DNA of 40,924 nt from an uncultured Verrucomicrobia subdivision 3 bacterium (lineage in GTDB: Bacteria; Verrucomicrobiota; Verrucomicrobiia; Limisphaerales; UBA11358), in contig CAIWFB010000156.1 of assembly GCA_903911825.1 (NCBI GenBank), positions 1 to 40,924 of the forward strand, read 5' to 3'. Under the pieces are notes generated by a model, which was given only the letters and a program-made list of their open reading frames with translations, did not search any database and was not told the DNA's origin. How positions within the stretch are numbered: the stretch's first letter is position 1; the number at the start of each line of letters is the position of its first letter. The position numbers and the translations under genes were made by a program. Shown here one piece after another: positions 1,518 to 26,972 of the stretch.

Positions 1518-2525
1518 TCATTTCCCCGCCACGCCTTTGAGATACGCCAGAATCAATTCCGGGAGGTCGCGGCTGTAACCGCCTTCCAACAGACTGAACA
1601 GCGGCACGTTCAGCTTCCGCAGCGCTTGGCCGAGCCAGTAAAAATCTTCGGCGAGCAAGGGGCCTTCCGCCAGCGGGTCGCGCGCGTAGGCATCAAACCC
1701 GGCCGACACGGCAATGAGCTCCGGCCGGAAACTGCGCAAGTCGTCCACTGCGTGCGTGAGTTGGCGGCGGTAGCCTTCGCGCGGCGCGTGCGGCGCCACG
1801 GGATAATTAAAACAGTTCCGCCCCACGCTGTTGGCGCCCGTGCCCGGATACGCCGGATGCTGGTGCACGGAGAAAAATTCCACGCCGCTTTGGTTCAGCA
1901 AAATATCTTCGGTGCCGTTGCCGTGGTGCACGTCAAAATCAAACACGGCCACGCGCTTAAATCCGGCTCCCTCGCCCCGCCCAAGCGGGGAGAGGGTGGG
2001 GGTGAGGGGATTGATAATCGAGCTGACTGAATCTGCTGCCTTCTCTGTTGCGATGCTTGGACCCCTCACCCCGGCCCTCTCCCCTAGGAGGGGCGAGGGA
2101 GAAGCAAGCGGAGCCACGGCCGCGAGCGCGGCGATGGCGATGTTGTTCAGGTAGCAGAAGCCCATGGATTTCGCGCGCGTGGCGTGGTGGCCGGGCGGGC
2201 GCATGAGGCTGAAAACATTCTGGCCAGCACGGGCGAGTTGCAGGGCATCCAGCGCGGCGGCCACGGAAGCGCGGGCGTGGTCGCCGATGCCGTCGAAGAA
2301 GGGCGTGTCGCCGTCAAAATCTTCGGGCACGTTCAGCCGGGCGAGGACTTCGGGCGTGTGCGCGCGGAGAATCGGTTCGTCGGTCACGGATGTGGGCGTC
2401 ACCCAAGTGAGCGGGAGGTCCGTCTGGCTTTTCAGCAATTCCACGGTGCTGGTGATGCGCTGAGGGCGTTCGGGATGACCGGCGCGCGAGTAGCCGGTGC
2501 ATTGGTCATCGGTGATGATGGTCAC
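1518..2525 (-). CDS. Histone deacetylase family protein (interrupted in-frame by repeat-derived sequence)
   Basis: Motifs RPPGHHA, FDFDVHHGNGTEDI, SAGFDAYARDPL, LEGGY. The ORF opens at 2669, but its first ~48 codons lie in an intergenic repeat; GTG at 2525 (VTIITDDQCTGYSRAGHPERPQR) is the more plausible start. Confidence 0.88.
   Translation of the reverse strand: MTIITDDQCTGYSRAGHPERPQRITSTVELLKSQTDLPLTWVTPTSVTDEPILRAHTPEVLARLNVPEDFDGDTPFFDGIGDHARASVAAALDALQLARAGQNVFSLMRPPGHHATRAKSMGFCYLNNIAIAALAAVAPLASPSPLLGERAGVRGPSIATEKAADSVSSIINPLTPTLSPLGRGEGAGFKRVAVFDFDVHHGNGTEDILLNQSGVEFFSVHQHPAYPGTGANSVGRNCFNYPVAPHAPREGYRRQLTHAVDDLRSFRPELIAVSAGFDAYARDPLAEGPLLAEDFYWLGQALRKLNVPLFSLLEGGYSRDLPELILAYLKGVAGK
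1968..2103. repeat. Family A repeat: two inverted ~40-bp copies inside the histone-deacetylase gene
   Basis: 1968-2008 tccctcgccccgcccaagcggggagagggtgggggtgaggg and 2062-2103 cccctcaccccggccctctcccctaggaggggcgagggagaa are near reverse complements. Confidence 0.9.
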
Positions 2526-25205: not shown

Positions 25206-25502
25206 AACTGTCTAGCTGTTATTCGTTGAAAACATTGCAACAGGGACACCGAGCGCGCCGAGAGAAGAATCCAATTTAGCTCTGTGCGCCTCTAAAAGGA
25301 GTCAGTCCCAGTTTTGTTAGAGCTTAAATTTACCCGCTTTCGGGCATTCGCAGCCGGTTTGGTCGTGAACCAAAATGTGTTGCCATCAAACCGCAATCTG
25401 TTGCCAGCCAATAAATCCCCCTTTACACGCGACGGTAAAAGCTATCGTTTTTTTCTTTTCCACGCTCTTGACTTACCCCACGCCGCGCAAAAAACTGCCC
25501 GC

Positions 25503-26972
25503 GTGAATCTCCGGGCCGAAAACTTCTACGCCGTCTGGCGCGAACGCTGCCGCGCCGTGAATGTCTTGCACGACGCGCAGGGCGGGCCGCCGGAGAAGTT
25601 GCTCCAAGCCATCTGGCAGCATCAGCGACTGCAACGCGACCAGCTCCGGACCGCCGATGGCCGCGTGGTGCGCGTGTTTCATCCCGGCTTCATCAGCGTG
25701 GCGGGCGGGCCGGACTTTCGCGGTGCGTTGCTGCAAATCGGCGATGCCCCGGCGACGTCTGGCGATGTGGAGATTGATCTGGTTTCCAGCGGCTGGCGCG
25801 CTCACGGTCACGACCGGAATCCGGCGTTCAAAAACGTCATCCTGCACGTCGTCTGGGAAAACGCGCGGCCAAACGCGGAAGTTCCCGCCGTGCTGGCGCT
25901 CAAATCAGTTTTGGACGCACCGTTGGCCGACCTCGCGGCCGCGTTGGAAAATGAATCTGGCTTGCCCGAAGCGTTGCGCGGGAAATGTTCCGCGCCGTTG
26001 CGGGAATTGAACGAAGTGCAGCTTACCGAACTTTTGCAAGCCGCAGCCAAGGTGCGCTTCGAGAACAAAGCCAGCGCCATCCGCGCCCGCGCAAAAAATT
26101 CCGGCTGGGAACAGGCGCTCTGGGAACAGCTCTTTCGCGCGCTCGGCTACCGCAACAATGTCTGGCCGATGTTGCATCTGGCGGAAACGAAAGCCCGCTG
26201 GTCGCGCGACACGCATTCGGCGTTTGAACTTCAGGCGCGGTTGCTCGGTGTCAGCGGGTTGTTGCCTGAGGAATTGACGCGCGCCCAGAAAAGTTCCGAC
26301 ACGTTTCTCCGGCACGCGTGGGATAGCTGGTGGCGCGACCGCGATGCGCTGGAAGCCTGCATTCTACCGCGCGCGGCGTGGAAGTTTCACGGTCTGCGAC
26401 CGGCGAATCATCCGCAACGGCGACTCGCGCTGGCCGCGCACTGGTTGGCGGCGGAGAAGTTGGTTGCCCGGTTGGAACAGTGGGGGGCAGCTGAAATAGT
26501 GGCTGGACCCCTCACCCCAACCCTCTCCCCTCAGAGGGGCGAGGGAGAAAAGCTCCTGCGATCACTCCACGACATTTTTCAAGTGGAACGCGATGATTTC
26601 TGGTCCTGGCATTGGACTTTCAAATCCGCACGGCTCACCAAACCGCAGCCGCTGCTGGGCGAAGGGCGCGTGACGGATCTGGCCATCAACGTGGTGCTGC
26701 CGTGGTTGTGGATTCGCGCGAAGGAAGGCGGTAACGCAGTGTTTCAGGCGGAAATCGAACGCCGCTTTTTCGCATGGCCGGCAGCGGAAGATAACGCCGT
26801 GCTGAAACTGGCGCGTCAGCGTTTGCTCGGCACCAACAGCGCCCGCGTGCTCAAAACATCCGCTGCGCAACAAGGCTTGATGCAGGTGGTGCGCGATTTT
26901 TGCGAGCATTCCAACGCCGTCTGCACCGATTGTCGCTTTCCTGATTTGGTGCACAGTTGGACAGCCAAATAA
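25503..26972 (+). CDS. DUF2851 family protein
   Basis: ORF opens at 25314; GTG at 25503 (VNLRAENFYAVWRERCRA) is a likelier start. Motifs LLQAIWQHQRLQRDQLRTADGRVVRVFHPGFISVAGGPDFRGALLQIG; FYLVW-type DUF2851 features. Confidence 0.75.
   Translation: MNLRAENFYAVWRERCRAVNVLHDAQGGPPEKLLQAIWQHQRLQRDQLRTADGRVVRVFHPGFISVAGGPDFRGALLQIGDAPATSGDVEIDLVSSGWRAHGHDRNPAFKNVILHVVWENARPNAEVPAVLALKSVLDAPLADLAAALENESGLPEALRGKCSAPLRELNEVQLTELLQAAAKVRFENKASAIRARAKNSGWEQALWEQLFRALGYRNNVWPMLHLAETKARWSRDTHSAFELQARLLGVSGLLPEELTRAQKSSDTFLRHAWDSWWRDRDALEACILPRAAWKFHGLRPANHPQRRLALAAHWLAAEKLVARLEQWGAAEIVAGPLTPTLSPQRGEGEKLLRSLHDIFQVERDDFWSWHWTFKSARLTKPQPLLGEGRVTDLAINVVLPWLWIRAKEGGNAVFQAEIERRFFAWPAAEDNAVLKLARQRLLGTNSARVLKTSAAQQGLMQVVRDFCEHSNAVCTDCRFPDLVHSWTAK
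26508..26550. repeat. Family A repeat copy inside the DUF2851-like gene
   Basis: ccctcaccccaaccctctcccctcagaggggcgagggagaa, matching the 2062-2103 copy; translates as PLTPTLSPQRGEGEK. Confidence 0.88.

Follow-up and report, generated by a model that had tools for sequence, protein, structure and literature searches.

The Rickettsia palindromic elements (RPEs) are palindromic insertions that lie in frame within genes and lengthen unrelated proteins by tens of residues (PMC10969869, PMC3733652), and intragenic REP elements of the GTAG/CGTC type have been described by Di Nocera et al. (2013, PMC3733652), including elements of the verrucomicrobium Opitutus terrae. Since RPEs and intragenic REPs are both in-frame insertions of palindromes, the phenomenon as such is already known. 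The window analyzed here is a stretch of 40,924 nucleotides from an uncultured Verrucomicrobia subdivision 3 bacterium that carries an insert in a histone-deacetylase (HDAC)-like gene. With a probability of about 0.9, this insert represents a doublet formed by a mobile repeat that is short, palindromic and non-autonomous (REP/REPIN-like), is common in the Limisphaerales and persists where reading frame and fold tolerate it. The host gene, the parts of the insert and a second in-frame unit in the window are located as follows.

1521–2525, minus strand: HDAC-family (lysine deacylase-like) gene, from the probable GTG start (Pfam, motifs, structure matches and model)
1968–2111, minus strand: in-frame insert of 144 nt (48 codons) encoding PLASPSPLLGERAGVRGPSIATEKAADSVSSIINPLTPTLSPLGRGEG (alignment with insert-free homologues)
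2058–2103, plus strand: palindromic unit 1, whose gene strand encodes SPSPLLGERAGVRG (91% identity to 26504–26549 over 46 nt)
2010–2057, no strand: spacer separating the two units (read from the sequence)
1970–2009, minus strand: palindromic unit 2, in opposite orientation, encoding NPLTPTLSPLGRGEG (core match; loop CCCCGCTTGGGCGGGG)
25314–26972, plus strand: conserved gene, presumably with a DUF2851-like product, that harbors the second in-frame unit (gene present in 39 of the 40 genomes searched)
26504–26549, plus strand: single in-frame unit inside this gene, encoding GPLTPTLSPQRGEGEK (approximately 14 net residues compared with insert-free relatives)

The open reading frame 1518–2669 on the minus strand runs without a stop codon straight through both palindromic copies, and its product matches the Pfam family Hist_deacetyl (E = 2e-58) in two separate stretches. 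The GTG at 2525 is the likely start codon and the initial 48 residues of the open reading frame are probably not translated. The catalytic motifs (RPPGHHA, FDFDVHHGNGT, SAGFDAY, and EGGY) are all retained, the closest solved structures are the lysine deacylase 5zmp and further deacetylases, and the Hist_deacetyl domain, the catalytic motifs and the predicted fold together place the protein in the HDAC superfamily.

The matches of relatives to the HDAC-like gene are interrupted exactly at the insert (residues 187–234 of the protein P0001). The affected segment is 79 residues long here compared with 31 in insert-free homologues, a net gain of 48 residues or exactly 144 nt. The first-pass annotation had proposed that an inverted palindromic pair at 1968–2103 forms an in-frame insert, that it adds about 50 residues while keeping the frame, and that homologues have only a short link at this site. 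The inverted pair is confirmed by the stop-free reading frame, the alignment and the absence of matches in shuffled sequence, and the added length and the short link of the homologues were likewise borne out. The proposed site holds; its extent was revised because the alignment to insert-free homologues places the ends at 2111 and 1968, making the insert slightly longer.

The insert consists of two inverted palindromic units of ~45 nt around a spacer of ~50 nt, and its predicted translation includes the peptide AADSVSSIINPLTPTLSPLGR. The core CCCTCACCCYNRCCCTCTCCC is found at 1988–2008 (minus) and 2063–2083 (plus) in opposite orientation and a third time at 26509–26529 (plus), compared with zero such matches in the shuffled window. 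As single-stranded DNA the insert folds into one long hairpin of −42.1 kcal/mol (shuffle z = −5.4). The two units are arranged heads inward with 75 nt between the core starts and a spacer that is longer than in doublets of this orientation in the related genome G001 (~20 nt). The loop CCCCGCTTGGGCGGGG of unit 2 is the loop of the heads-inward doublet family of G001, and the insert can be described as a mixed doublet in which the second arm is G001-like with the GCTTGGGC loop and the first arm resembles single units. Separately, positions 474–654 of the window hold several copies of imperfect repeats with the motif ACCGGCACCGATA.

An AlphaFold2 model built on 45 sequences assigns pLDDT values <50 to insert residues 142–145 and 147–182 and high values to most other residues, and locates the insert between a helix (residues 128–137) and the strand that bears the catalytic D-x-H (all in model numbering), in agreement with the original placement of the insert just ahead of the catalytic strand. 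The insert is thus predicted to form a disordered loop while the HDAC core fold remains intact, which answers the earlier suggestion to model it as a possible surface loop. An assembly artefact or a decaying pseudogene might be suspected in a draft metagenome-assembled genome of 354 contigs; since the frame and the catalytic motifs are intact and in-frame inserts also occur at this position in independent assemblies (G001/L154 and L155), this explanation is hardly credible.

The distribution of the insert was examined in 110 homologous loci from related genomes (MAGs of Verrucomicrobia subdivision 3, Limisphaerales, and Pedosphaera) and named genome contigs, which correspond to 93 distinct proteins after removal of 17 exact duplicates. 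Only three of the 93 carry an insert, all at the same linker, with net lengths of 48 residues in the genome of the window (G000), 38 residues in G001 (the L154 sequence is identical), and 12 residues in L155, which contains a single unit. An ancestral segment shared among distant homologues had been named as the finding that would overturn an insertion, and the homologues compared across the order lack the residues, apart from these three of the 93 proteins. The scattering of the three carriers over the HDAC tree could be read as the remains of an ancestral segment lost in most lineages; that reading is very improbable given that the segment is built from a multicopy interspersed repeat and differs in make-up between the carriers. 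As a separate observation, the HDAC-like gene looks mosaic, with an N-terminal part nearest to L155 (identity up to 0.90) and insert surroundings nearest to G001 (window 1521–2525 compared with L155 and L055).

G000 and G001 have almost the same unit 2 in the insert, including the peptide NPLTPTLSPLGRGEGxGFKRV. Together with the occupation of one linker in three species, this resemblance is what would be expected if the loop, or a hairpin in the mRNA, had become useful (as an interaction surface or in translational pausing) and were kept by selection. However, unit 2 also matches the multicopy doublet family of G001 so that its likeness in the two genomes does not need selection, unit 1 and the spacer have diverged with a shorter spacer in G001, L155 retains only one unit, most relatives have no insert, and the loop is predicted to be disordered. 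Such a domestication is therefore considered improbable.

The insert carriers do not form one clade in the HDAC tree, and in the tree of the second gene (25314–26972) G000 and G001 are rejected as sisters (p = 0.0001) and insert-free species fall between them. Both results would fit repeated, independent targeting of the same linker through an insertion-site preference that goes beyond mere tolerance, as would the recurrence of the unit at one linker of PabB (in G001, G009, G020, G021, and G026) and at one linker of PheS (in G001 and G021). Against this, an approximately unbiased (AU) test of the HDAC tree does not reject a clade of G000 and G001 (p = 0.28) and is borderline for the trio (p = 0.052), and around the insert G000 and G001 are mutually closest and have in common the rare residues GFK after it. 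No target motif was found, and a site preference of this kind is regarded as rather unlikely. The closeness of G000 and G001 around the insert and their common GFK residues make it possible, as judged from sequence comparison, that a single insertion was spread by recombination or lost elsewhere. Overall, the HDAC insert may have several origins, or it may have a single one followed by transfer through recombination or by loss.

The consensus of the unit, derived from 51 exact units of G001, consists of CCCTCACCCYRR, followed by a hairpin of CCCTCTCCC, a loop and GGGAGAGGG (the stem end and the loop are variable) and by a short A/G-rich tail. It is present in 36 out of 40 related genomes searched, with 0 to >100 matches per genome and a reversed-pattern control near zero. 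Absence of the unit from the rest of the genome would have spoken against a repeat; pattern searches identified 17 matches at ≤3 mismatches in the draft genome of the window (control: 1) and dozens in relatives. Doublets occur in two orientations, heads outward with mostly ~110–145 nt between the core starts and a variable spacer, and heads inward with ~45–49 nt between the core starts and a partly conserved spacer. Two further observations concern single positions. Locus L012 (contig C228 of G000) carries roughly half of a unit, in frame (TTSPQPSPPEAAYWLA), at ~1501–1521 in a gene for a probable membrane protein, and at the position of the 26504–26549 unit extra residues of different, unrelated sequence are present in several relatives.

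The frequency of intragenic in-frame copies, which the first-pass annotation had suggested tabulating, was determined in G001 by scoring the flanks of the places listed for the unit with a hexamer coding model. Of the 75 elements at these places, 21 are flanked on both sides by sequence coding in one common open frame, three lie in one frame with a stop codon, three have flanks on one strand in different frames and the others are intergenic or unassigned. The in-frame class is in excess (21 out of 24 compared with an expected one third, p = 6e-8), where the assignments are coding statistics. In 18 of the 21 cases Pfam domains span the element or lie on both sides of it, with hosts KsgA, RsmH, an oligopeptide ABC ATPase, a pseudouridine synthase, a phospholipase D-type protein, a UvrD-type helicase, primase, urease gamma-beta, a type ISP restriction enzyme, MnmE, a CCA-adding-type enzyme, LigA, UvrA, an amine oxidase, PabB/TrpE, PheS, a CysJ-type reductase, and HDAC; some of these names were partly assigned by reading the sequences and are presumptive. 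Direct alignment to solved structures identified a 19-residue insert in PheS and an insert of ~55 residues in the zinc-finger region of LigA. In the genome of the window 3 of 12 elements are in frame. In G026 the count of same-frame elements is at most 8 of 18, an upper bound because some of them look like gene starts and are likely intergenic false positives.

The peptides encoded by the unit come from several reading frames. The unit has 4.39 stop-free frames compared with 4.43 in random 43-mers of the genome, and an adaptation of the unit to coding was ruled out on this basis. Because random DNA offers just as many open frames, in-frame survival indicates selection acting on the host gene rather than an element adapted for coding, and the in-frame excess most simply reflects the selective removal of gene-breaking insertions. 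Under the preferred reading of the HDAC insert as a mobile-repeat doublet, a transposase acting in trans would have mobilized copies of the unit as hairpins, and these would have landed in sites of all kinds. Inside essential or selected genes, only copies that kept the frame and fell into a tolerant linker would have survived. The P/S/G/E/R-rich peptide would then be carried as a near-neutral loop that drifts in sequence or shrinks by multiples of three nucleotides, and no peptide function would be required to account for it.

The linkers of PabB and PheS were compared with equally long control segments nearby. At E ≤ 1e-3, 10 of 20 PabB linkers match unrelated loci compared with 4 of 78 controls, and 7 of 15 PheS linkers compared with 3 of 60, a comparison that favors linkers holding the unit because loci with the unit are over-represented in the set, and in which each linker with another repeat has just a few matches. 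Further species carry different sequences at these linkers, and some of those with matches elsewhere (ADTAPLQ..., AGKMPAL..., GAPASGPAR...) are not the unit. These other apparent repeat families (ADTAPLQ...AVAAVCDRR, AGKMPAL, and GAPASGPAR...) were seen in the PheS linkers L379, L384, L389, and L382 and the PabB linkers L367 and L368. The balance leans slightly towards a scenario, suggested by these sequence matches, in which a small number of linkers in conserved enzymes (the HDAC-like deacetylase, PabB/TrpE, and PheS) would have been colonized in frame repeatedly by several unrelated palindromic repeat families within the Limisphaerales, in which case mobile repeats would be a main source of the differences between linkers throughout the order.

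A search for the transposase identified no Y1_Tnp gene in the draft genome of the window, and among the Y1_Tnp places listed for G001 none is near a unit, all being far away. Eight Y1_Tnp loci of relatives have at best degenerate units nearby, and the copy number of the unit correlates weakly with the Y1_Tnp count (rho = 0.32, p = 0.04). A cognate RAYT was accordingly not found in the genome of the window or beside units. One Y1 (IS200/RAYT-type) transposase gene of G001 (L088, contig C9) is adjoined by its own, different short palindromes, for example CCCGCAGTTTCAACTGCGGG.

The HDAC insert adds a clear further example to those from Rickettsia and a few other bacteria. With it, the insertion of palindromes in frame is now seen in an order of environmental Verrucomicrobia, for a repeat family that apparently has no tag, and in core proteins of translation and repair. 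The same linkers sampled in many species provide a natural series in which the entry of insertions into proteins, the tolerance of individual sites and the later erosion can be measured, a question already raised for Rickettsia. The unit also accounts for the LTPTLSP/GEGRGEG peptides that recur among predicted proteins of the genomes studied; a literature search for the peptide LTPTLSP found no paper.

Among known systems, MITEs resemble the unit as non-autonomous, interspersed inverted repeats but differ in that, for the unit, neither a parent transposon with matching ends nor a target duplication was established. In the REPIN/RAYT system (Nunvar 2010, PMC2817692; Bertels and Rainey 2011, PMC3116915), two inverted short palindromes form one long hairpin, occur in many copies and carry no gene of their own, and the two inverted units of the HDAC insert likewise fold as one hairpin and belong to a multicopy repeat that has no gene of its own; here, by contrast, no cognate RAYT was found adjoining the units and a sizeable share of the copies is intragenic. 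Literature searches on REPIN/RAYT in protein-coding genes and on palindromic insertions within the Verrucomicrobia or the Planctomycetes returned nothing relevant beyond PMC3733652. The parallel to RPEs drawn at the outset is supported as a functional likeness (palindromic, in frame, predicted disordered loop), judged by description and not by RPE sequence: the unit is likewise inserted in frame in unrelated genes and adds tens of residues, but RPEs belong to another phylum and the unit is shorter and read in several frames. With GTAG/CGTC REPs it shares a multicopy short palindromic stem-loop and inverted dimers of two orientations, whereas the 51 exact G001 units have no GTAG or CGTC tag at either end and instead a constant part CCCTCACCCYRR beside the hairpin. 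Since this tag is missing and no cognate transposase was found, the unit is classed with REP/REPIN-like repeats and kept apart from the GTAG/CGTC REP and RPE families. The intragenic REPs (PMC3733652) differ from it in host and host genes; here the host is of the Limisphaerales type and the genes include PheS, MnmE, RsmH, KsgA, and the HDAC-like gene. Nevertheless, they are short palindromes, single or in inverted dimers, within known genes of O. terrae, they occupy similar hosts (uvrA and DNA ligase, and pseudouridine synthases in other species), and one of their dimer orientations has conserved spacers and the other variable ones, so that intragenic REP dimers are a closer organizational match to the unit than RPEs.
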